Part shown: positions 2,591 to 62,459 of the stretch, one piece after another
Layout of the letters: each line of letters starts with the position of its first letter
Position numbering within the stretch: the first letter of the stretch is position 1
Source of the DNA: a virus
Strand: one strand, 5' to 3'
Length of the DNA stretch: 64,000 bases
Virus record (IMG/VR): IMGVR_UViG_3300044797_000098
Coordinates: 342,471 to 406,470 of that record
The notes under the pieces: generated by a model
What the model was told of the DNA's origin: nothing
What the model saw: the letters and a program-made list of their open reading frames with translations, nothing else
Databases searched by the model: none
Made by a program: the position numbers and the translations under genes

Positions 2591-3994
2591 TCATAGGTAT
2601 TTAGAATAGATTTTTGCGTATTTTGACTTCGGTGATTTCGGTTTCTTTGAAAGTTTTGCTAACTCTTTATTTATAATTGGAATTACTTTCTTTGATGCTT
2701 CTGATACGATTTTTTTTCTTATATTTTCAGTCTTTTTTGAAGGTGAAAAAAAACCATACCATACATCACTCATATGGTTGTTTATGGCTTTCTTTACATC
2801 TTCCACATCAGATTTAAATTCTGGTTTGGTTATATACCGCGGATTATCATTCCACAATCTTAAATCATCTAAAACATTAACATAATCGACATCTTTATTT
2901 TTTACATCTCTAATAACATTTTTATATTCTTCGGGAACATCTGCGAGTTTTAATTTTTTCACACACGATATAAAACTTTTTGCTACTGCATTATCAATTC
3001 GATCTGATATTTTTTCCAATTCTCTACCGGTCCTATCATCATAAGTTTCATCATCAGTTTCATCATCATAATCGATCTCATTATCGCGATATGATCTGCA
3101 ATCGTAATCTAAATTGCTAACTACTTCGCTTGTCGGTATAACAACATTGGAACGCAACCCATTTTTTAAATCGATTATATCGAACTTGTTTTTAGTTTTT
3201 TCTTTTAGAAAAGTAATGAACTCTTTCATTACGGCTTTATTATATTCAGGATACATAGTATCTATAACAATGCTTGGTTCTTTGCTTCGTTCTTTTACAA
3301 CGAACCTAACAATACATCGACGAAGCATCTTGCTACCATAATCTGTTTTTGTGCCAGAGGTTAGATATATAATACCAGTGAATGGATCGACAATTGATCC
3401 GACTAATTTACCACAATACTCCTTACCCCAGCCCTGACACGAAGATATACCACGCATTGACATCGTAGCAATATCCCATAGTCCTTCCATACCATCGGAA
3501 GAAAAACGAACTGTATGTTTAGCGTTTGGTATATTTATTGAACTGAATTGCTTAAAAGCACTAATGTTTTCTAACGCTGGAAGATATGATTGGTATTGTT
3601 TATGTAATTTATTATATACTTTGAATACACCCTCGCCTTGTTTGAACACAATTTTTTTATCTTTATCCGCAATAGGTTTTGTGAGATTGAGGGATATTTT
3701 ACCATCTTTTTTTACAACCGATTTAACAAGAGTATTAGATAGATTGCTTATCAATGTATAGTCTTGTTTATAAATAGGAATATAATTATGTAATGCACAA
3801 CTCATATTTTCAACTAAATTTAACGCAGTTTCCTTTATTTCTTCTGTGTTATCTATGCTTACAACTTTTTCACAATTAGGAAGTCCAATATCTGGGAAGA
3901 TTTTCCTTACAACTTTTACTGTTTTGAATATAGGATGTTGTCTTATGAAGACAGGAAAATCTTTTTTAGCGAATATCTGTTTTACTGTTGGCAT
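2591..3994 (-). CDS. Large unknown protein, 467 aa, paralog 1 of 3
   Basis: This is the first-transcribed copy of the triplicated family. It shares FPDIGLPNCEKV, VYNKLH, WDIATMSMRGISSCQGW, GSIVDPFTGIIYLTSG and YGSKMLRRCIVRFV with its neighbours. A strongly acidic Asp/Tyr-rich patch lies near residues 300-330, where the other copies carry basic linkers. The start MPTVKQIF aligns with the starts of the paralogs. The function is unknown. Confidence 0.85.
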   Translation of the reverse strand: MPTVKQIFAKKDFPVFIRQHPIFKTVKVVRKIFPDIGLPNCEKVVSIDNTEEIKETALNLVENMSCALHNYIPIYKQDYTLISNLSNTLVKSVVKKDGKISLNLTKPIADKDKKIVFKQGEGVFKVYNKLHKQYQSYLPALENISAFKQFSSINIPNAKHTVRFSSDGMEGLWDIATMSMRGISSCQGWGKEYCGKLVGSIVDPFTGIIYLTSGTKTDYGSKMLRRCIVRFVVKERSKEPSIVIDTMYPEYNKAVMKEFITFLKEKTKNKFDIIDLKNGLRSNVVIPTSEVVSNLDYDCRSYRDNEIDYDDETDDETYDDRTGRELEKISDRIDNAVAKSFISCVKKLKLADVPEEYKNVIRDVKNKDVDYVNVLDDLRLWNDNPRYITKPEFKSDVEDVKKAINNHMSDVWYGFFSPSKKTENIRKKIVSEASKKVIPIINKELAKLSKKPKSPKSKYAKIYSKYL

Positions 3995-5115: not shown

Positions 5116-6105
5116 TCAATTCTCTTTACACACATTCACATAAAAAACATTACCATCAATTTCAATCTTTTTTGCATCCTTAGGATCATCATTATATGAC
5201 ATCAGTGCAATTTCATTCGCGAGCAGTTCTTTTTTCAACTTATCTTTATACTTTACGATGACATTAGCGGGTTTTGGCATACAAAAGATTTCGATATATA
5301 CTCGATCTGTCAATTCCAATTCGAGTTCTTTACGCACATTTTGCAATGCAGACTTAAAATCAGCAATAAATCCTCTTTCCAATAACTCATCGTTCAAGTT
5401 AGTATCAAGAATGATTACCCCTGATTTATTCGATGAGGAAGCATAACCCGCTTTTGATACGAACTCAACTTCAATATCTGCTAATGTTAGATCAATATCG
5501 CACATTCTAACTGCTTCTTTGTTTTCGAGCAGTTTATACAAGTCTTTACGATCAGCAAAACTCATCTTTGCCAGTTCAATTTTCAACGCATTACCTTGCT
5601 TGCCTCGTCCAGTTTTGCCAAGATTTCTAAAATTAGGCTTCAATACCATATCGGTGAATTGATTTGTGTCTTCGACGAATACAACTTTATCAACATTTAA
5701 TTCATCGCCAAGCACATTAGCGTAATCGTTGTTCTTGCAATCAACATACACCATATAATTTTGCACTTGTTTATCTGCGAATAACACATATGCTGTGCTC
5801 AATGGTTGTCGATTACGGATTTTAACTTCCGCACGAACCTTATGTCCCATCTCGCACATATCACGAATTGACCGCATACGATAGATTAGTTCGTAATCGA
5901 TATCACCAACTGGTGATTTATTTACACTAACGATAGCGAAGTTCGGATCGTTTTGATATTCCGCCTGATATTCTTTGATCAACTGATCTGATTTATCATC
6001 AATGGAATTGAACGAGGCGAATGCAGTCCATTGCTGAACAACACCTTCATCATTTGTGGAATTATAGCGAATTGTGTATTCACGCACGGTTTTTGTTTCC
6101 CTCAA
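5116..6105 (-). CDS. Stand-alone isoleucyl-tRNA synthetase C-terminal domain (DUF5915-like), 329 aa
   Basis: From about residue 75 the protein reads like the C-terminal end of type-2 isoleucyl-tRNA synthetase: MRSIRDMCEMGHKVR, then IRNRQPLSTAYV, then LNVDKVVFVED, then LKPNFRNLGKTGRGK, then a long segment with VIILDTNLNDELLERGFIADF and VRKELELELTDRVYIEIF. The Rossmann catalytic domain (HIGH, KMSKS) and the editing domain are absent, and the first 75 residues are unrelated. In full synthetases this region follows the anticodon-binding helical domain and contributes to tRNA handling. The same phage carries tRNA-Ile(UAU) at 30361. The domain match is from recognition of the conserved blocks; the purpose of a free tail is inference (tRNA binding, or modulating or mimicking the host enzyme). 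Confidence 0.75.
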   Translation of the reverse strand: MRETKTVREYTIRYNSTNDEGVVQQWTAFASFNSIDDKSDQLIKEYQAEYQNDPNFAIVSVNKSPVGDIDYELIYRMRSIRDMCEMGHKVRAEVKIRNRQPLSTAYVLFADKQVQNYMVYVDCKNNDYANVLGDELNVDKVVFVEDTNQFTDMVLKPNFRNLGKTGRGKQGNALKIELAKMSFADRKDLYKLLENKEAVRMCDIDLTLADIEVEFVSKAGYASSSNKSGVIILDTNLNDELLERGFIADFKSALQNVRKELELELTDRVYIEIFCMPKPANVIVKYKDKLKKELLANEIALMSYNDDPKDAKKIEIDGNVFYVNVCKEN

Positions 6106-15880: not shown

Positions 15881-16581
15881 TATGGTTTCGTGCTAACCTT
15901 TTTGATTGGTTTCATTTTCTTTGTTGGGGTTGGAACTGGATTTGCTGGCATTGGAACTGGAACTGTTTTTGTTCCACTGCCACCAATATATTGTCCTGAT
16001 CCTGCTGGCGGTGTAGCAGAAATACTTTGCGTTGGTTTAGTTGTTTTCAATGTTTTCAGTTGATTTACCGCATTCTTCATCTTCTCTTCGAGCGTTTTCT
16101 TTGCTTCCTTTTTCACTGTTGGCTTGGAAGATAGATCAATTTTCTTCGGTGTATAACCGATGCTCTTATACATATCTTCTCTTGGGAACCTATAATACTT
16201 TACGTTATCTTGTTCTGCGTTTTCTGGTTGTGATATATTATCACGCACCCGAATGATTGCGTTTCCATTCTTTACATCTTTACCAATTAGCCACACTGCT
16301 TTTTGCAGCACATAATCTTTGCCCGGTGCGCTGTGATCGAATGTGCTTGGCATATCCCACATAGCATCAATCTCTGCGAGGACAATAAAAACATCCGTTG
16401 GATCAAGTGATTTAGCAATGTTTTCCATATCGGTTAAATTTAAATCACCAGCACCAATTCGCTCGCCCGCACCATTATACCAGCCAGCATTTTTTATTAT
16501 GCTGTTCCAGCGCATTTGGTTATTAGATAGACCGAATGCTTTGCATTTGAGATCGCCGAACATTGATTTTGTGAGTTTCAT
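15880..16581 (-). CDS. Unknown protein with Pro/Lys/Thr-rich tail, 233 aa
   Basis: A globular part (residues 1-150, with DVFIVLAEIDAMWDMPSTFDH) is followed by a low-complexity tail with GSGQYIGGSGT and repeated PVPxP and KK motifs. It overlaps the stop of gltX by 4 bp, so it is co-transcribed. Such tails are often surface or linker segments in phage proteins; the function is unknown. Confidence 0.7.
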   Translation of the reverse strand: MKLTKSMFGDLKCKAFGLSNNQMRWNSIIKNAGWYNGAGERIGAGDLNLTDMENIAKSLDPTDVFIVLAEIDAMWDMPSTFDHSAPGKDYVLQKAVWLIGKDVKNGNAIIRVRDNISQPENAEQDNVKYYRFPREDMYKSIGYTPKKIDLSSKPTVKKEAKKTLEEKMKNAVNQLKTLKTTKPTQSISATPPAGSGQYIGGSGTKTVPVPMPANPVPTPTKKMKPIKKVSTKP

Positions 16582-18005
16582 AGTTGTGCCTTTATTCTAT
16601 TCAATACTGTTTCTTTTCCGAGCACGCCCATTACTTGGAATAGTTCAGGGCTTTGAGTTCGGCCGTATAGTGCCACACGAGTGCTTTGTCCAACATCGCG
16701 GATTGTTAGATTGTTTTGTGTTAGCCAATCATTCGTTGCTGTCCGAAGATTGGTTTCCGTCCAATCATTTACGGATTGTAGGAATGTATTGAATGCGGAT
16801 AGTTTCGTTTTGGCTTCCGGTGTTAGTATTTTTTCTACTGCGGATTGGTCAATGGAGATGTCGGAACGGAGAACTGGCTCTAACTCTACGCTGGCTTCCC
16901 GAAAATTTTTTGAACGCGTTCTGACGAGATTAGTTAGGGAAGCAAGACGATCGCGGGAAACATCAAGCCCCAATTCTGCAACGAACGGATGTAAGTGTTT
17001 TGCATACACATCGTCAGGCGTAAGCGTCGATGACTTTAAGTGTTCATAGTTAATGACACTGAATTTCTTGAAATCATATTTGCCGTCATTACGACCCACT
17101 GCTTCTAATGAAAACTTTTCGATCAGTTCATCAATGCTAAATACCTCTTGGGACTTCCATCCCCATCCAAACCTTACAAGATAATTTAAAACTGCATTTG
17201 GAGTAAAACCTAATTGCCTAAATTCAGCAACGCTTACTGCACCATCGCGTTTCGAGAGCTTCCCGCCATTGCTATTTAATAATAATGGCAGATGACAATA
17301 TGTCGCACGATCAATTCCTAATGCCTCGTATAACATCAGTTGGCTGGGTAGATTTTTTAAATGGTCAGATCCCCTGATAATATGCGTTATATGATCTATA
17401 ACGCCGTCATCTATGGCGTTTGCGAAGTTGAAGAGAGGGATACCATTTTGTCTAAAAATTACGAAGTCAAAATTTTCCTTGTTTGGAATTGCTCGCTTAC
17501 CAAACGCTATATCATTAAATTCGATTACACCATCTGTTGGAGCTTTGAAACGAACAACATAATCTTTGCTTAATTGTTTCGTTATATTTCTACAAGTTCC
17601 GGGATACTTCCAAGGATTTTTAGGATTTTTCGCAAGCGCTTCTTCGCGTTGCTTATTTAGATCTTCCTCGGAACAATAGCATAAATAAGCTTTACCGCTT
17701 GCTATTAGTTCTTCTGCATACTTCTTGTATATTGGAAGGCGTTCCATTTGTGTATAAACACCAGCAGGCTTATTATTCGTTCCATAACCCATCGTTGGGA
17801 TTAGTCCGAGCCATTTAAGATCTTCAAGTATTTTATCTGCGCCACCTTCAACAACACGAGCCTGATCGGTATCTTCTATTCTTAATAGGAATTCGGCATT
17901 ATATTTTTTGCTGAATAACCAATTGAACAAAAAACTTTTTGCATTTCCGCAATGTAAGGTGCCACTGGGCGACGGAGCACATCTAACACGAAGATTATTT
18001 GACAT
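16578..18005 (-). CDS. gltX: Glutamyl-tRNA synthetase, 475 aa
   Basis: Class I synthetase that joins glutamate to tRNA-Glu. The full-length plan is visible: the HIGH-equivalent APSPSGTLHCGNAKSFLFNW at the N-terminus, the GluRS signature LLRIEDTDQAR, the IIRGSDHLKNLPSQLMLYEALG block, the KMSKS-equivalent KLSKRDG near residue 245, and an all-helical C-terminal anticodon-binding domain ending in NRIKAQL. Length matches bacterial GluRS (about 470). Its start overlaps the ribbon-helix-helix gene by 11 bp. A complete GluRS in a phage is unusual; it could replace a host enzyme that is inactivated, or charge a phage RNA. Confidence 0.92.
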   Translation of the reverse strand: MSNNLRVRCAPSPSGTLHCGNAKSFLFNWLFSKKYNAEFLLRIEDTDQARVVEGGADKILEDLKWLGLIPTMGYGTNNKPAGVYTQMERLPIYKKYAEELIASGKAYLCYCSEEDLNKQREEALAKNPKNPWKYPGTCRNITKQLSKDYVVRFKAPTDGVIEFNDIAFGKRAIPNKENFDFVIFRQNGIPLFNFANAIDDGVIDHITHIIRGSDHLKNLPSQLMLYEALGIDRATYCHLPLLLNSNGGKLSKRDGAVSVAEFRQLGFTPNAVLNYLVRFGWGWKSQEVFSIDELIEKFSLEAVGRNDGKYDFKKFSVINYEHLKSSTLTPDDVYAKHLHPFVAELGLDVSRDRLASLTNLVRTRSKNFREASVELEPVLRSDISIDQSAVEKILTPEAKTKLSAFNTFLQSVNDWTETNLRTATNDWLTQNNLTIRDVGQSTRVALYGRTQSPELFQVMGVLGKETVLNRIKAQL

Positions 18006-24064: not shown

Positions 24065-25021
24065 CTATTTTTCATAGTTTTTATTCAAAAACTTTTTTGC
24101 ATTTTCAAAATCTTCTATACTACGAATAGTAATTTCTAAATCATCTGGACAAAAATCTTTACTTACATCTTTCGTAAAACCCTCTATTAGGGGAAGATTA
24201 GTATTAGATTTGGTATATATTTTTATTATTTTTGTTTTAGCGTCAATCGCTATTGATGCAAAATTATCTAACCCGCGCTTGAATATAAAATATAATTCAA
24301 TTTCTTTTTCTTGTAAATCATTTCCAAGATTTAATATATAAGATTTTATATTATCGAAAAGATCTTTGATATTTTTATCCGCTTCGTGTAATTGAATATT
24401 GAATGTTTTCGGACTACTATCATCTATTGATGCAATATCGTTTCTAATTTCTTGAAGATCGGGTATGGTAGGAGGCAGAATACTTTTCGCCATTTTCGAA
24501 GGGCGGTCATTATCAATCGCATTTATTAGTTCAAGGATCATAAACCCTTCATCGTATTTTTTATACCTAATCAGTTCTATGTTATATTGACTAATCATTT
24601 CTGCTGAACGAAGATCATATTTGGTAAAATCCTCTGCAATACATAAAATACGCGGACTTTTCCAGTCAATATCATTTATTGAATGATCGGCTAATTGTTC
24701 TCTAACAAGTATTTTGAAGTCGCTTTTATGATCTAATAGCCATCCTAAATAATATAACCCTTGACTAATTACATTTTCATTTATTGAACGCTTATATTCA
24801 ATAATAACTGGACATCCGTTTCTGTCTATACCAAGCGTATCAATACGACATTTATGTAGTTTCTCTTTTGGATATTCGGTAGCAAGAAACCTAACCCCAA
24901 GAAACCCTTCTAAATTAGCTTCAATTGAGGACTGTAATGATCTTTCTAACTGAACCGATTTTCCTGTCAATTCTATTATTGAATTATCATCTTTGAACTG
25001 GAATAACTTGATATTACTCAT
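24065..25021 (-). CDS. NucS/DUF91-like PD-(D/E)XK nuclease with C-terminal DUF5655 domain, 318 aa
   Basis: Residues 30-170 carry the nuclease core CRIDTLGIDRNGCPVIIEYKRS (D-(x)n-E-x-K) and QGLYYLGWLLDHKSDF; residues 215-318 match a DUF5655-type domain (LFDNIKSYILNLG, IELYFIFKR-LDNFASIAID-KTKIIKIY). Such proteins are found in bacterial and archaeal genomes as stand-alone putative endonucleases. Paired with the HARE-HTH gene, this could be a DNA-targeting nuclease acting on host or rival DNA; that role is inference. Confidence 0.75.
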   Translation of the reverse strand: MSNIKLFQFKDDNSIIELTGKSVQLERSLQSSIEANLEGFLGVRFLATEYPKEKLHKCRIDTLGIDRNGCPVIIEYKRSINENVISQGLYYLGWLLDHKSDFKILVREQLADHSINDIDWKSPRILCIAEDFTKYDLRSAEMISQYNIELIRYKKYDEGFMILELINAIDNDRPSKMAKSILPPTIPDLQEIRNDIASIDDSSPKTFNIQLHEADKNIKDLFDNIKSYILNLGNDLQEKEIELYFIFKRGLDNFASIAIDAKTKIIKIYTKSNTNLPLIEGFTKDVSKDFCPDDLEITIRSIEDFENAKKFLNKNYEK

Positions 25022-33289: not shown

Positions 33290-33357
33290 TGTAGTTGCTT
33301 TGAACCCTGTGTGGCTGCTTGGAGCCCTGTGTGGTTGGATGTGCGCTAAAAACTAAG

Positions 33358-33509
33358 AAAGGCGCAAAACCTTGGCAGCGTTTTCCGACCTAATGTCCTA
33401 TATAAGTTGCCTCATTAAAGTCCTCAATGCAATTTTTGAGGTTGCATATCAATGGAGAATGAGGAAGTATATTTGGACGATCGGAGACGGTGCTTAAGTG
33501 AGCGCCTTT
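33358..33509 (-). ncRNA. Nested structured RNA, about 150 nt
   Basis: Five helices nest: AAAGGCGC (33358-33365) with GCGCCTTT (33502-33509), CCGA (33385-33388) with TCGG (33481-33484), GTCC (33395-33398) with GGAC (33475-33478), CCTCATT (33410-33416) with AATGAGG (33458-33464), and TGCAA (33428-33432) with TTGCA (33442-33446). CCTCAA/TTGAGG offers an alternative inner pairing. No open frame fits. It lies directly downstream of the three tRNA-like genes and upstream of the next promoter, so it is probably on the same minus-strand transcript. Known RNA families of this shape are not recognised. Confidence 0.6.
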
Positions 33510-33522
33510 GCTTATTTTGAAT

Positions 33523-33597
33523 TGGTGACCTCTATCTGGTATAAGCAGATATTCTTTTGAGCGAACTCAAAATGTCCTTAACTTAGACGAAGAGGCC
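33523..33597 (-). ncRNA. tRNA-like RNA 3, anticodon arm replaced by UUCG-capped stem
   Basis: Acceptor GGCCTCT/AGAGGTC, discriminator A and encoded CCA; D arm GTCT-AAGTTAA-GGAC; then an 18-nt arm TTTTGAG-TTCG-CTCAAAA, a 7-bp perfect stem with a 4-nt loop in place of the normal 5-bp stem and 7-nt anticodon loop; 4-nt variable region; T stem ATCTG/CAGAT with loop CTTATAC, lacking the TTCRA consensus. It cannot present an anticodon in the usual way. Confidence 0.7.
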
Positions 33598-33610
33598 GTA
33601 ATGAAAAACT

Positions 33611-33686
33611 TGGTGACGGTAGGAGGGCTCGAGTCTCCATTGCCAATGCCGAAGCGCTGGTGTCCTACTAATTAGACGATACCGCC
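33611..33686 (-). ncRNA. tRNA-like RNA 1, anticodon arm replaced by UUCG-capped stem
   Basis: Acceptor GGCGGTA/TACCGTC with A73 and encoded CCA; D arm GTCT-AATTAGTA-GGAC; arm CCAGCGC-TTCG-GCATTGG (7 positions, one C-A mismatch and one G-U, capped by the very stable cUUCGg tetraloop); variable CAAT; T arm GGAGA-CTCGAGC-CCTCC, where position 53 is A and 54 is C instead of the near-universal G and T. Confidence 0.7.
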
Positions 33687-33702
33687 ATACGTAAAAACTT
33701 CG

Positions 33703-33775
33703 TGACCGGAGAGGGGCTCGAGTCCTCATCGATGTTTCCTAAGAAACATTATCCTACTAATTAGACGATCCGGCC
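33703..33775 (-). ncRNA. tRNA-like RNA 2, anticodon arm replaced by tetraloop stem
   Basis: Acceptor GGCCGGA/TCCGGTC, followed by ACGA rather than ACCA; D arm GTCT-AATTAGTA-GGAT identical in loop to RNA 1; arm ATGTTTC-TTAG-GAAACAT (7-bp perfect stem, 4-nt loop); variable CGAT; T arm GAGGA-CTCGAGC-CCCTC. First in the cluster behind the promoter at 33815. All three RNAs share the G1-C72, G2-U71, C3-G70 acceptor start. Confidence 0.7.
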
Positions 33776-33814
33776 GTCTTTTGATCATTCACTTTCGCGT
33801 CCGACCATATCTAC

Positions 33815-33843
33815 AACTTAACCACTACCGCGCTGGCTGTCAA
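33815..33843 (-). promoter_or_regulatory. Sigma70-type promoter of the tRNA-like RNA cluster
   Basis: Minus strand -35 TTGACA (33838-33843), 17-bp spacer, -10 TAAGTT (33815-33820). The predicted start is about 35 nt before tRNA-like RNA 2. Confidence 0.7.
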
Positions 33844-34063: not shown

Positions 34064-34336
34064 TTATTGACCAGCCTTGCGCAACTGAATGCCACCAGCC
34101 TTGCGCAACTGAATGCCACCACCCTTACCGCGAGGAGCGTGGATATCTGCACGACTATCCACATACATAGCAATGATAGCCACCGCGCCACCGACTGTCA
34201 AGCCATTGGCGATAGCAATCTCATTGGCAAGCGCTGTGCCAGATAGTGGCTTACCGCTTGCAACCGCTGCATTGATGCGTGTCTCCACGACATCAAGAAA
34301 ATTACTAATCGTATCAATTACAACTTGTTTGCTCAT
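34064..34336 (-). CDS. Small protein with duplicated tail, 90 aa
   Basis: Helical, Ala/Val-rich body (GTALANEIAIANGLTVGGAVAIIAMYVDSR) and a basic tail in which GGIQLRKA occurs twice because of an exact 24-bp tandem repeat. SD GGAAGG upstream of MSKQVVI. Promoter at 34363. Confidence 0.7.
   Translation of the reverse strand: MSKQVVIDTISNFLDVVETRINAAVASGKPLSGTALANEIAIANGLTVGGAVAIIAMYVDSRADIHAPRGKGGGIQLRKAGGIQLRKAGQ
34071..34118. repeat. 24-bp tandem duplication at the end of a gene
   Basis: Two perfect 24-bp units (34071-34094 and 34095-34118) duplicate the octapeptide AGGIQLRK in frame. Confidence 0.9.
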
Positions 34337-34940: not shown

Positions 34941-35420
34941 TTACTCTAACTCCACTCTACATTGACCGTCAGCAATGTTCGCGTATATATTCAACGCTTT
35001 GAACCTCTGTATTATAGTCTCTGCCATTGGCTTTGTCAAGACCGGGCACTTAAAATTACCGAACACAACTTCCTTTGATCCAGCAATACTAACACCGGTT
35101 ATCTCTCTAAATGCCTTCACCGCTTCCATTCTATTCTCATCAGGAAACGCAAGCATTCTAATCCTAACACCAACATCTGGCTCTTTATAAGTTCCTAAAT
35201 TGATTTCTTTTACTGGCTTCTCGCCCAACTTGGATTGCTTAATGAACGATGGTGTTTCTTCCATCGAAGTAATTGTTCCGATCGAATTAGCATCCGATTG
35301 AATGTTTCCAACGACATTGGCAGCAATCTGTGCAATATCCATAATCTCTCGCGAGGAAAGATTACGATTGAGTTTGATATGAAAGATACCGTTTTGATTT
35401 TCGTTTTTTATTTCGAACAT
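34941..35420 (-). CDS. Protein with ribosomal L7/L12 C-terminal-like domain, 159 aa
   Basis: Residues 85-155 follow the L7/L12 C-terminal pattern: VRIRMLAFPDENRMEAVKAFREITGVSIAGSKEVV, then LTKPMAETIIQRFKALNIYANI. The N-terminal half is unrelated. Large phages do encode L7/L12-type proteins, which contact translation factors on the ribosome, but here the match is by secondary-structure pattern and not strong sequence identity. A perfect consensus promoter lies inside the gene. Confidence 0.5.
   Translation of the reverse strand: MFEIKNENQNGIFHIKLNRNLSSREIMDIAQIAANVVGNIQSDANSIGTITSMEETPSFIKQSKLGEKPVKEINLGTYKEPDVGVRIRMLAFPDENRMEAVKAFREITGVSIAGSKEVVFGNFKCPVLTKPMAETIIQRFKALNIYANIADGQCRVELE
35011..35039 (-). 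promoter_or_regulatory. Consensus sigma70 promoter inside a gene
   Basis: Minus strand -35 TTGACA (35034-35039), 17-bp spacer, -10 TATAAT (35011-35016): a full consensus match, located inside the L7/L12-like gene and pointing to the small membrane genes downstream. Confidence 0.7.
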
Positions 35421-35871: not shown

Positions 35872-36382
35872 CTACGATTCCAATCTCCTGAATTGTGTGT
35901 AATGGACAATTTATTCCATATTGGTTTTTCATATATGCATCGTATAATTCGATTAATTTTTTAGCATTATCGATGGTTTTATTAGTATTCGTAATTGCAA
36001 TTTGTTCTTTAATTGCATTAAGATCTCCTTGATCTTTGGTCGAAGATGTCGGTAAATCTAATGCAACAAAAAGATCTGGATACCTATGTGATGGTGCATT
36101 CATTGGCTCTGGAACTGGAACGGGACGATCTTCACCTATATCATCAACGGCTTGATATGGCTGAGCAGGCTGTTGTTGTAATTCTTCTAAGGAAACTAAG
36201 GAAAAAGCATTTGCTAATCTTGCATATGGAACTTTTTTCGGTGATTTCTTTGGTGATGGTTTTTTAGCCTTCAATCCAAGATATTCTTCAATTTTTTCTA
36301 CAACGCCTTCTACTGCTTTTGTTTCTGTTCTAAATGCTAATCCAGTTGGATTACCATCGGTATAATTAAAATATATCCACAT
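35858..36382 (-). CDS. Unknown protein with Lys/Pro linker, 174 aa
   Basis: An N-terminal globular part is followed by KAKKPSPKKSPKKVPY, a Pro/Gln-rich linker, and a C-terminal helical domain. The KSPKK linker resembles nucleic-acid-binding tails. Part of the 35.4-38 kb block. Confidence 0.7.
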   Translation of the reverse strand: MWIYFNYTDGNPTGLAFRTETKAVEGVVEKIEEYLGLKAKKPSPKKSPKKVPYARLANAFSLVSLEELQQQPAQPYQAVDDIGEDRPVPVPEPMNAPSHRYPDLFVALDLPTSSTKDQGDLNAIKEQIAITNTNKTIDNAKKLIELYDAYMKNQYGINCPLHTIQEIGIVDAKV

Positions 36383-36391
36383 ATATAACTC

Positions 36392-37234
36392 CTAATCTGT
36401 AATTACGACTTTTTGATTTTTCTTCTTACATTTATTGTCCCATTGCTCAATAGTCCATCCGTATTCTTTGAGAATGTTTGGCCAATGTTCTTCATATTGT
36501 GATTTGTTTAATGTTTTTGACAACTCCATTAAATCATTGAACTTGGCTCTTTGCGGTGTTCTTATCTTGAAAGATGATCTTGTTGGATCTAATTCGAGAT
36601 CTGTTTTGATTGCAGCAATTCTATTAGGACGATTATTATCGACTTCAATTTTTACTAACTGCATTAATTCTTCGTGAGACAATGTAGGGTTTTTATCTTT
36701 TACAACAATGAATGCCTTCAATTCATCAATTTGATATCGTAGATTTTTGTTTGTTTCTCGATATTGTTCGAGAGTATTGATCAATGTTTCGGTAGATTTC
36801 TGTTCTTGTCGTTCCGATCTTCTTCCTTGTTCGACGCCCAAAAGGAATGTTATATGCAAAACAACATCCATCAGTTTGATGTTTTTTAATTTGGCAAGAT
36901 GTTTTTCTGTAAATTGATTTTTTGGAGACGGGAATAATTGCAATTCGTTCTTACCGATATTGTATCCTTCATAATCGAAGGATTTAACATCATTGCGAAT
37001 AAGTTTATATCCCTTATTGATTATGTCTTTTAACGGTGATATTAGTTTAGAATACGGAACTAATGTGGAAGGATCGTCTGACCACTTCTTCATTTTCTTT
37101 TGTGGCTTTGGCTCTTCCTTCGGTTTTTCATTTGCCGGAACTGATATGGTTGTTGGCAACATCTCTGATGGTTTGCTATTGAGTTTTGTAATATCAATTA
37201 CATTATTCATCTTATCGTCCAAGGTGTTGTCCAA
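36392..37234 (-). CDS. Unknown protein with central coiled coil, 280 aa
   Basis: A Lys/Pro-rich N-terminal linker, a globular middle (LVPYSKLISPLKDIINKGY), a coiled coil near residues 125-180 (EQGRRSERQEQKSTETLINTLEQYRETNKNLRYQIDEL), then a basic helical C-terminus. An oligomeric scaffold or DNA-associated protein is possible; not recognised. Confidence 0.7.
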   Translation of the reverse strand: MDNTLDDKMNNVIDITKLNSKPSEMLPTTISVPANEKPKEEPKPQKKMKKWSDDPSTLVPYSKLISPLKDIINKGYKLIRNDVKSFDYEGYNIGKNELQLFPSPKNQFTEKHLAKLKNIKLMDVVLHITFLLGVEQGRRSERQEQKSTETLINTLEQYRETNKNLRYQIDELKAFIVVKDKNPTLSHEELMQLVKIEVDNNRPNRIAAIKTDLELDPTRSSFKIRTPQRAKFNDLMELSKTLNKSQYEEHWPNILKEYGWTIEQWDNKCKKKNQKVVITD

Positions 37235-37605
37235 GGATTTGGAAAAAGATCATTTGATATCGTGAAAGTATTCCCAACCACATTTGTGGTGGTAGTGAAT
37301 GGTCCATACATAGTGGAATAAGTATTCGATTTCAATTCTTGAACTGGATGAATGTATAAAATCTCTCTTCCCTTTGGATCATATAGAGCATAAGCATGTA
37401 TTCCGGTTGTGATGGACGATTTTATTCCAACTGGAATAATTTGTATGTTATATACAGGATGCCAGTTTTGTGGATTAATAATTTTGGATTTAACCAGTTC
37501 TTCGTAAAAGTGTTGAAGAGTTCCTTTACCAGCGCATAGACTGATGTATCCTAATACTTTTGAGTTTTTACTTTGTAGTCTCGGACAATGAACGCGATAT
37601 ATCAT
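37207..37605 (-). CDS. Unknown protein, 132 aa
   Basis: Beta-rich, with IHAYALYDPKGREILYIHPVQEL and a Thr/Asn-rich, Pro/Trp-rich C-terminus (FPNPWTTPWTIR). Overlaps the upstream gene by 38 bp. No motif. Confidence 0.65.
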   Translation of the reverse strand: MIYRVHCPRLQSKNSKVLGYISLCAGKGTLQHFYEELVKSKIINPQNWHPVYNIQIIPVGIKSSITTGIHAYALYDPKGREILYIHPVQELKSNTYSTMYGPFTTTTNVVGNTFTISNDLFPNPWTTPWTIR

Positions 37606-59994: not shown

Positions 59995-61374
59995 TTACAC
60001 TATCGCTCTTTTACGAATGTTTTCGAGAGTATCATCCACCAATAACTCTCCGTTCTCATATACGGTTCGCATTACTGATAACGGACATTGAATATCATTA
60101 TCAGTCAATCTAATTGTTTCAAGTTTTCCATTACGATTAATTAGATCAAGACGACCTGCTTTGCTTCGTTTTCCATGATCTGTAATTGGATCTTTGAAAA
60201 CATCAACTTGCTTGCCATCAACAATAGCGCTACTACATTTCATAGCGAACTTATTGGTATCACGGTTATGTTGCTGCAATAACGCACCACCCATACCGAA
60301 TGCAACATTAGATGCGCTATAACCATTAGCGAGCAACTTTTCAAGAATGATAGCAATCATTCCTTCATTAATACCATCACCCTGAATAATACGAACATGA
60401 TTCAACACACGATATCCTTTTGTATTGATTGTATGTCCAAAAGATTCATCGAGTAATTGCGCTGTTTTCAAAACAACATCGGGAGGATGACCGGAGTCTG
60501 GACGAATAATAACCGTTGCTCCGCTATCAATAACTTCGCCTTTCAACTCGCTACCCCAATACTTACTGATAGCATTCCATAAATCATAACTATCACTAAC
60601 CACCGCTACAAGAGCACCGGGCTTCGCGAACTGTTTTAGCATATTACGATATGCATCACACTCTCTATCTCTACCCCAACTTGTAATTGATGAATGTTCT
60701 GCTGCCGAGATAGAGAATGCTGACATATCTATATGATAGAAATCATTAGCACATAAAACACCTACATCTGTATCACTTCCCATGAAGTTAACCAAGTGTG
60801 ATGCTCCACCAATCATTGCTGATTCTTGACTGGATACACCCCGACTCCCAAAATCATGTAGTTTGAATGGTAATTCTGCTTCTGTATTATCTGCTGATTT
60901 ATCGAGAGCAGCCTTGATTAGTTTCTTGATTCTCCAACTGATTGTCGCAACATTGGTCGGATACCACACGCGAAGCAACGAGGTCTCAATCCAAGAATAA
61001 ATCCAAGGAACTTTCGTATCTGTTAATTCAACTGTAATCAGTGCATTGTGCGATGGAACAACTGTTCCTTCTGGAACCGCACGAATGCGAACTGGAATCT
61101 TACCACCAAGATCTTTGGCGATATACATCCATCCATCGTAATTGAATACTCCCATATGAGCCTTGAAAAACTTATTGGCTCGCTCGACTTCATCAACTGT
61201 GATACGATGAGTTAGGTATTCTTTGAGATAGTATTGCAATCCGAAGAATACTGTTTCTGGATGCTCACCTCCACGTGATTCAACATAACCGAATAGGCTT
61301 GTTGTATTAGGAGGATATTGTAAATAGTGGCTTGATTTATAACTGTCTGTGTCGAATATAATGCTGTATTTCAT
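59995..61374 (-). CDS. nampt: Nicotinamide phosphoribosyltransferase (NAMPT), 459 aa
   Basis: Converts nicotinamide and PRPP to NMN. Characteristic segments: DTDSYKSSHYLQYP at the start, GYVESRGG, LHDFGSRGVSSQESAMIGGASHLVNFMGSDT (substrate pocket), SAAEHSSITSWG (catalytic His), VSDSYDLWNAI, IRPDSGHPPDVV and FGMGGALLQQHNRDTNKFAMKCS. Length fits the family (about 460-490). Directly upstream on the same strand is NMNAT-Nudix, and both share the same GACGGAGAGTCAA ribosome-binding region. Confidence 0.95.
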   Translation of the reverse strand: MKYSIIFDTDSYKSSHYLQYPPNTTSLFGYVESRGGEHPETVFFGLQYYLKEYLTHRITVDEVERANKFFKAHMGVFNYDGWMYIAKDLGGKIPVRIRAVPEGTVVPSHNALITVELTDTKVPWIYSWIETSLLRVWYPTNVATISWRIKKLIKAALDKSADNTEAELPFKLHDFGSRGVSSQESAMIGGASHLVNFMGSDTDVGVLCANDFYHIDMSAFSISAAEHSSITSWGRDRECDAYRNMLKQFAKPGALVAVVSDSYDLWNAISKYWGSELKGEVIDSGATVIIRPDSGHPPDVVLKTAQLLDESFGHTINTKGYRVLNHVRIIQGDGINEGMIAIILEKLLANGYSASNVAFGMGGALLQQHNRDTNKFAMKCSSAIVDGKQVDVFKDPITDHGKRSKAGRLDLINRNGKLETIRLTDNDIQCPLSVMRTVYENGELLVDDTLENIRKRAIV

Positions 61375-61433
61375 TTGACTCTCCGTCTTTGTTTAATTCA
61401 ACGAACCCTCACTGGGATCGCTTACTGTTTGTT

Positions 61434-62459
61434 TCAGTTGCCATCATCGTTATTGATGAAGTTGTAAATTATATGCCAATGATCCTCAAAAAACTCTGAA
61501 CTCCTCGTATAATACTCTGCAAGAGGAAGCCAAAAGGCTTTGTCTGCGTCGGAATCACCCTTCACAAGATTCAGGGCACCAATTCCAAGATTCAATTTGA
61601 ACGCCTGAGTAATTGTTCTTCCTCTAAGTGAGCGACGAGGATGATCGAATGTTTTTTCCCCTTTAATAGCAGCGAACAATGTTCGCTTATCGAGATCGAT
61701 GCTTGTTTCTTCTTTTAGTTCTCTAATTGCTGCTTCCCTGAGAGTTTCATTCTGTTCAACGAATCCACCCGGAAGAGCAAGCAATCCTTTACCATACTTA
61801 GCACGACGTCTAACAAGTAAAATATGACCTGATTTAATTACTACTGTATCGACTGTTTGGAAGGTAGGCGGAAACGGGGCTCCCTCCCATGCCGACTTAT
61901 ATTCATTCAATTCATCAAAACTATCTTTGAGATATGAAAACTTCTTGGAACGTTTAAACTCTTCCAACCAACGAGCAACGTTCTCTGGAACGTATTGTCG
62001 ATACGAAACATCATGAGTAAAATACAATTCACGAATACCAGTGGCATGTAGTTTATGTTGCGTCTTATAGTTAATGAACTCCCAATCAGGGAATGAATCA
62101 AGGTAATAAGAAGTGATATCTGACTTATGTCCAACGAGAGCAACATGCTTAGAACGATCTGTGATATCGAGAACTTTTTGTTGAATCTCAATTAGCCAAG
62201 TGTTCTCATTGTATAGATAGTCTCGAATAGGAAGAACTATAATCCTATCTTTTTGTTCTGGGGTTAGAACTGACTCAATAATATCGTGTCGCTCTCTCGA
62301 CGAGAACGGATCACGAGGATCGGATGCTTTATCATGCGAACCAACAATAAGAATTACCTTATCACCAATGGATAGGGCAAGATTAAGAAGTTCCATGTGA
62401 GCATTATGGAATGGCTGAAAACGCCCAATAACAATCGCATATTCGTAATCTAATTTCAT
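61434..62459 (-). CDS. nadM: Bifunctional NMN adenylyltransferase / Nudix hydrolase (NadM-type), 341 aa
   Basis: Residues 1-170: NMNAT with YAIVIGRFQPFHNAHMELL (GxFxPxHxxH), GSHDKASDPRDPFSSRER and the later ATGIRELY. Residues 195-341: Nudix with GGFVEQNETLREAAIRELKEETSI (complete Nudix box). Makes NAD+ from NMN and ATP; the Nudix half cleans up ADP-ribose or related nucleotides. With NAMPT this rebuilds NAD+ from nicotinamide, a known phage counter to NAD+-depleting defences. Confidence 0.93.
   Translation of the reverse strand: MKLDYEYAIVIGRFQPFHNAHMELLNLALSIGDKVILIVGSHDKASDPRDPFSSRERHDIIESVLTPEQKDRIIVLPIRDYLYNENTWLIEIQQKVLDITDRSKHVALVGHKSDITSYYLDSFPDWEFINYKTQHKLHATGIRELYFTHDVSYRQYVPENVARWLEEFKRSKKFSYLKDSFDELNEYKSAWEGAPFPPTFQTVDTVVIKSGHILLVRRRAKYGKGLLALPGGFVEQNETLREAAIRELKEETSIDLDKRTLFAAIKGEKTFDHPRRSLRGRTITQAFKLNLGIGALNLVKGDSDADKAFWLPLAEYYTRSSEFFEDHWHIIYNFINNDDGN

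Follow-up and report, generated by a model that had tools for sequence, protein, structure and literature searches.

What use could a virus have for RNAs that keep the shape of a tRNA and cannot decode? The question is raised by three tandem tRNA-like RNAs encoded on the minus strand of virus record IMGVR_UViG_3300044797_000098, in the terminal 64 kb of this 406,470-base record (positions 342,471 to 406,470), which is the whole stretch of DNA that we analyzed and is called the window here; feature coordinates are those of the window unless another contig is named. The window has phage-type genes, such as those for terminase and a T4-type RNA ligase/tail-fibre attachment protein, at a G+C content of 35.6%, and the record is most likely that of a giant phage. 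A sequence-only reading of the window had described the RNAs as tRNA mimics in which a tetraloop-capped stem replaces the anticodon loop, and had argued that this design reflects selection rather than decay.

Cloverleafs with a sealed anticodon arm

Direct reading of the sequence confirmed three minus-strand cloverleafs, RNA a (33700-33775), RNA b (33611-33686) and RNA c (33523-33597), each with a 7-bp acceptor stem, a D arm with a 4-bp stem, a 4-nt variable region and a T arm. The anticodon-position arm is 18 nt long in all three and divides into 7 + 4 + 7 nt, that is, a 7-position stem closed by a 4-nt loop (UUAG in a, UUCG in b and c). The tetraloop-capped stem described earlier thus held with regard to the arm, but the stem of b is imperfect, with one C.A mismatch. 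As had also been claimed, CCA is encoded at the 3' end of two of the RNAs (ACCA in b and c; a ends in ACGA), G2-U71 is present in the acceptor stem of each, and the T loop is aberrant, with C54 in place of T54 in a, b and c and A53 in place of G53 in a and b. The T loop of c, CUUAUAC, is like that of an RNA of a related phage (r1, below). We regard this structure as firm. The minimum-energy structure of c folded alone differs from the cloverleaf, which is nevertheless supported by covariation. Neither ARAGORN nor, even at E 10, the Rfam models reported a, b or c.

A search with the 365-amino-acid gene neighbouring the array identified a related contig, IMGVR_UViG_3300031595_000166 (157 kb), which is collinear with the window virus across the array region and carries four tandem tRNA-like RNAs (r1 to r4) at the syntenic place. 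All four were found by a covariance model for which a, b and c were the only input sequences (E 4.1e-11, 1.2e-10, 3.1e-10 and 1e-4), and the other matches to this model that we inspected were ordinary, unrelated phage tRNAs. The syntenic copies show compensatory changes in the 7-position stem, where r1, like b, has one mismatch, and the 4-nt loop is kept. Homologs with normal 7-nt loops, which would have pointed to error, were looked for as well, and all syntenic homologs found retain the stem with its tetraloop. Identity between the RNAs of the two phages is ~47 to 61%, against a shuffled baseline of 46%, and the comparison is therefore informative about structure.

In an alignment of the seven RNAs that was fitted to the structure, so that the counts lean toward it, 18 of 22 pairs had changes on both sides and standard pairing was found in 98.7% of cells. 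None of 500 shuffled controls reached any of the covariation measures, and sliding the pairing partners abolished the signal. Each of the seven pairs in the stem at the anticodon position covaries, and the two inner pairs that close the former anticodon loop are formed in 7/7 RNAs, with 4 and 2 pair types. Independently of the alignment, a model-free structural scan, whose criteria were set after the RNAs had been seen, gave exactly 3 + 4 matches on both strands of the two genomes (564 kb), none in 110 kb of tRNA-rich phage DNA and none in 4.8 Mb of Markov-random strands.

Could the array nevertheless consist of decayed tRNA genes, or of frameshift-suppressor tRNAs with 8-nt loops? An 18-nt arm is what a tRNA with an 8-nt loop would have, and the RNAs probably descend from a tRNA. 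However, an open 8-nt loop does not fit inner pairs that are formed in every copy, U33 is gone from all seven, and 18 covarying pairs exclude decay. An ordinary or decayed tRNA was ruled out by the covariation together with the loss of U33, and we consider this whole family of explanations very improbable. Taken together, the compensatory changes across two phages strongly support the view that the tetraloop-stem design is under selection, as the sequence-only reading had proposed.

An acceptor end without a decoding end

The seven RNAs have the 7-bp acceptor stem and the D, anticodon-position and T arms of a tRNA (RF00005), but a 7-nt anticodon loop with U33 occurs in none of them, and neither does the G18G19 or the T54 of the G18G19 plus T54-U55-C56 elbow. 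By comparison, U33 is present in 89/94 ordinary phage tRNAs, GG in the D loop of 92/97 and a T loop of the TTCRA type in 89/97. Because these defining features of tRNA were looked for and found to be missing, the RNAs are classed with the tRNA-like RNAs and not as tRNA, and their description as anticodon-free tRNA mimics is supported on structural grounds. Their tetraloops are UUCG, UUAG or CUUG. Invariant in 7/7 are G1-C72, G2-U71, G10, G22, C54-U55, A73, C74 and A76, and CCA is encoded in 4/7, as opposed to 0/7 ordinary tRNA genes in these phages. The acceptor end thus looks like the working part of the molecule, from which the decoding end and the elbow appear to have been removed. The functions suggested from sequence alone were those of an aminoacylation substrate, a decoy or a scaffold; that the unpaired end A73-C74-N-A76 is conserved, together with G2-U71, speaks against a pure scaffold. 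We do not claim that the RNAs have evolved faster than tRNAs, since between the two phages the identity of the ordinary tRNAs is itself no higher than 0.64 for Ile and 0.60 for Lys.

Promoter, leader and rod RNA

The array is part of a larger unit, which comprises a promoter, a leader, the tRNA-like RNAs and a further structured RNA and which ARAGORN and Rfam missed entirely. Leader and rod, like the lost elbow, the tRNA-Glu affinity and the synthetase gene described below, were not part of the sequence-only reading. The promoter that had been proposed at 33815 is a sigma70-like element on the minus strand (33815-33843), in which a 17-nt spacer separates a -35 TTGACA (33843-33838) from a weak -10 TAAGTT (33820-33815). 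Its layout is kept in the relative (TTGACA-N17-TAGATT, in L033), which favors the claim; against it stand the weak -10 hexamer and the fact that a consensus promoter scan gave no score to TTGACA-N17-TAAGTT. Between this element and RNA a lies a conserved leader (33776-33810, minus strand) with a CGC-GAAA-GTG hairpin, the core of which is 93% identical in the relative. A match to the leader motif in a contig of a Sphingobacterium metagenome-assembled genome was rejected as a chance match in bacterial genomes, as it lies in apparent coding sequence with no tRNA-like RNA nearby. Directly 3' of the array is a conserved rod-shaped RNA of ~165 nt (33346-33515, minus strand), which closes with a U-run, the likely 3' end of the transcript. 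Its folding z score is -4.26 here and -4.43 in the relative, and 36 consensus pairs are kept in both phages, 5 of them with double changes. The rod has no Rfam match, and a search of other contigs gave no credible homolog; one weak full-length match (G038, E 0.01) was discounted because it is antisense within an open reading frame.

The strong folding of the rod, and the fact that leader and rod are conserved no less than the cloverleafs, would suit a different explanation, in which the uncut transcript of ~465 to 540 nt is a single structured particle, comparable to GOLLD and ROOL, with the cloverleafs as its modules. However, every unit keeps the G2-U71 wobble and, unpaired, the ACNA at its 3' end, copy number is three in one phage and four in the other with differing spacers, and the whole transcripts fold only modestly above shuffles (z -2.9 and -2.2). 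We therefore consider this explanation unlikely. It is improbable, too, that the cloverleafs serve only as punctuation, marking cut sites that free the leader and a rod RNA that is the real product. The last unit does immediately precede the rod, and tRNA-like processing signals (t-elements) are established elsewhere, but three or four copies would not be needed for this, the spacers are short (2 to about 20 nt) and nothing would require the stem at the anticodon position to be kept.

We instead propose, with a probability of about 45%, that the locus is an RNA-only operon of non-decoding tRNA mimics that would present their acceptor end to a tRNA-binding enzyme. One promoter would drive a transcript of about 465 nt that contains the leader, the three tandem tRNA-like RNAs and the rod. 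The mimics, whose anticodon arm has become a 7-position hairpin sealed by a tetraloop and which have lost the D-loop/T-loop elbow used by real tRNAs, would be cut out to unit length, which is suggested by the fact that an unpaired end would be conserved only if it is an end. The acceptor end would then be offered to a protein that reads or attacks the acceptor ends of tRNAs. A protein that reads the acceptor stem is suggested by conservation of the G2-U71 wobble, and a ligand of an acceptor-end enzyme is proposed because the RNAs have neither a means of decoding nor an elbow. The outcome could be either a decoy, occupying for example a tRNA-targeting defence, or an aminoacyl carrier acting away from the ribosome, perhaps together with the glutamyl-tRNA synthetase (GluRS) that the phage itself encodes. 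The rest of the 406-kb record (L002-L018) encodes Thg1 (tRNA-His guanylyltransferase family), a PNKP phosphatase domain and RNA ligases, a set of tRNA/RNA-repair type; these genes fit a phage that contests tRNA damage, and we therefore slightly prefer the decoy; tRNA may be contested or managed during infection.

Several points weigh against this proposal. The CCA end is imperfect in three of the seven copies (CGA, CGA and CTA), loss of the elbow may make the RNAs poor substrates for RNase P and related processing enzymes, and the neighbouring genes tested beside the array gave no match to a PADLOC defence family. Moreover, the array is carried by two related phages only, so that its invariants rest on few independent events: no close relatives of it were found in the phage or plasmid collections searched, and no third carrier was found among the protein-anchored contigs to which the search for further carriers was directed. 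At somewhat less than even odds, we also suggest that the locus represents a new class of viral noncoding RNA, made up of tandem, anticodon-sealed, elbow-less mimics and a partner rod RNA, in which the mimics would capture or feed an acceptor-end enzyme during infection. If true, this would be a tRNA-fold system separated from decoding and maintained by selection.

tRNA-Glu affinity, neighbouring genes and known systems

Which enzyme might be the partner? With the anticodon arm left aside, tRNA-Glu was the best-scoring match among 97 phage tRNAs for each of a, b and c. The glutamate identity determinants that lie outside the anticodon, U11-A24, U13-G22:A46 and the absence of residue 47 (PMC9976931), are all present in a, b and c, and ordinary tRNA-Glu genes of phages, too, combine G1-C72 with G2-U71. 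The window encodes a full GluRS (16578-18005, minus strand; Pfam tRNA-synt_1c 1.3e-80, Anticodon_2 9.9e-25), and the relative encodes one as well (G010 36114-37538), 61% identical to it. GluRS is rare in phages, with matches in 43/50,697 phage records, yet both carriers have the gene, and neither has a detected tRNA-Glu gene, which suggests a possible link between the synthetase and the tRNA-Glu-like RNAs; its presence in both carriers counts as one event because the two phages are related.

The RNAs might thus be substrates of the phage GluRS, either as Glu-charged, ribosome-invisible carriers for a nontranslational reaction or as a means of titrating the host GluRS. Against this, the relative's four RNAs have A11-U24 in place of U11-A24 and are not tRNA-Glu-like, and the anticodon determinants U34, U35, C36 and A37 are lost as such, replaced by tetraloops in all seven RNAs; the UUC within the UUCG loop may be a coincidence. 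Furthermore, the phage enzyme looks built to read UUC, as it retains the anticodon-binding domain and an arginine aligned to R350 of the Escherichia coli enzyme, the residue that we take to read C36. Because r1 to r4 are not tRNA-Glu-like and the enzyme keeps these anticodon-reading features, we retain GluRS as a rival explanation, the foremost of the alternatives if still an unlikely one, and tentatively keep the mimic operon as our main proposal.

Searches for the tetraloop form elsewhere gave only rejected candidates: the model matches in other GluRS-bearing huge phages were ordinary tRNAs, tRNA-Glu best, the matches inspected in 50 terminase- or GluRS-related contigs were likewise ordinary tRNAs, and an exact match to the D-arm string (L020) proved to be an ordinary tRNA-Gly. 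The tRNA array of a terminase-related contig (L144) contains two ARAGORN tRNAs with 4-base anticodons (ttaa, 952-1028; tttt, 2970-3044) and 8-nt loops. The two GluRS genes show ~55 to 60% DNA likeness over the catalytic half and a patch of ~150 to 200 bp near the C terminus with 91 to 93% DNA identity; the patch suggests recombination, and we therefore do not read it as functional constraint.

Beside the array, the window encodes a 90-amino-acid protein (34064-34336, minus strand) that is ~80% identical in the relative and had no match elsewhere in our searches. A gene conserved in both phages immediately upstream of the array (34941-35420, minus strand) has weak similarity to the C-terminal domain of ribosomal protein L7/L12 (E 0.068). 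Farther away are a match to the PADLOC candidate defence family PDC-S18 (24065-25021, minus strand; E 7.5e-104), a phage tRNA-Ile(UAU) (30360-30433) and a stand-alone open reading frame (5125-5715, minus strand) matching DUF5915 (E 4e-32), which we take to be the C-terminal domain of isoleucyl-tRNA synthetase. A nicotinamide phosphoribosyltransferase and a neighbour that reads as a cytidylyltransferase-NUDIX fusion (59995-62459, minus strand) apparently form a phage NAD-salvage pair. A SpoU methylase, peptide deformylase, trigger factor and Cas12f/TnpB-like genes are found in the rest of the record.

The array offers an example from nature, backed by covariation, of tRNA-shaped RNAs unable to decode, apparently in a DNA phage. 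Two questions thereby become testable: do phages deploy non-decoding tRNA mimics against immunity directed at tRNA, and do the aminoacyl-tRNA synthetases of giant phages act on targets beyond translation? Our literature searches, the coverage of which was incomplete, turned up no tRNA-like RNA of phages in which the anticodon arm is sealed. A link to Ro60 and Y RNA (YrlA) was rejected because the partner TROVE gene (PF05731) is absent from the 406-kb record. GOLLD and ROOL (PMC12286853) are also structured noncoding RNAs, some of them in phages, but the array has unit cloverleafs with tRNA-like 3' ends, and its RNAs gave no covariance-model match to GOLLD, ROOL or other phage RNAs of Rfam.

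With bacterial tRNA-Glu (RF00005), a, b and c share the cloverleaf, the acceptor start GGC..GUCA, the D arm UCGUCUAA..AGGAC, U13-G22:A46 and the lack of residue 47; they differ from it in the missing anticodon loop, U33, G18G19 and T54 and in having no Rfam tRNA match at E 10. G2-U71 is also an essential identity pair of tRNA-Lys for class I lysyl-tRNA synthetase (PMC9976931), but the array RNAs have no lysine anticodon. Phage tRNAs with changed anticodon loops have been proposed to resist anticodon nucleases (PMC10264068). Phage tRNAs that evade anticodon nucleases or retrons (PMC10264068; PMC11555353) resemble the array RNAs in being phage-encoded tRNA folds with a possible link to tRNA-targeting defence, but they are read as decoding tRNAs, which the array RNAs cannot be. 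The tRNA-Other of Bacillus cereus (PMC3399842) is a tRNA-like RNA of bacteria without a use in translation; it has a Trp anticodon and a chromosomal gene, whereas the loop here is sealed and the genes are tandem and viral. Finally, the tRNA-like domain of transfer-messenger RNA and the tRNA-like structures of plant viruses also combine an aminoacylatable-looking end with the absence of ordinary decoding, but the array RNAs lie outside any reading-frame RNA or viral genome 3' end and carry, in place of an anticodon, a sealed stem.
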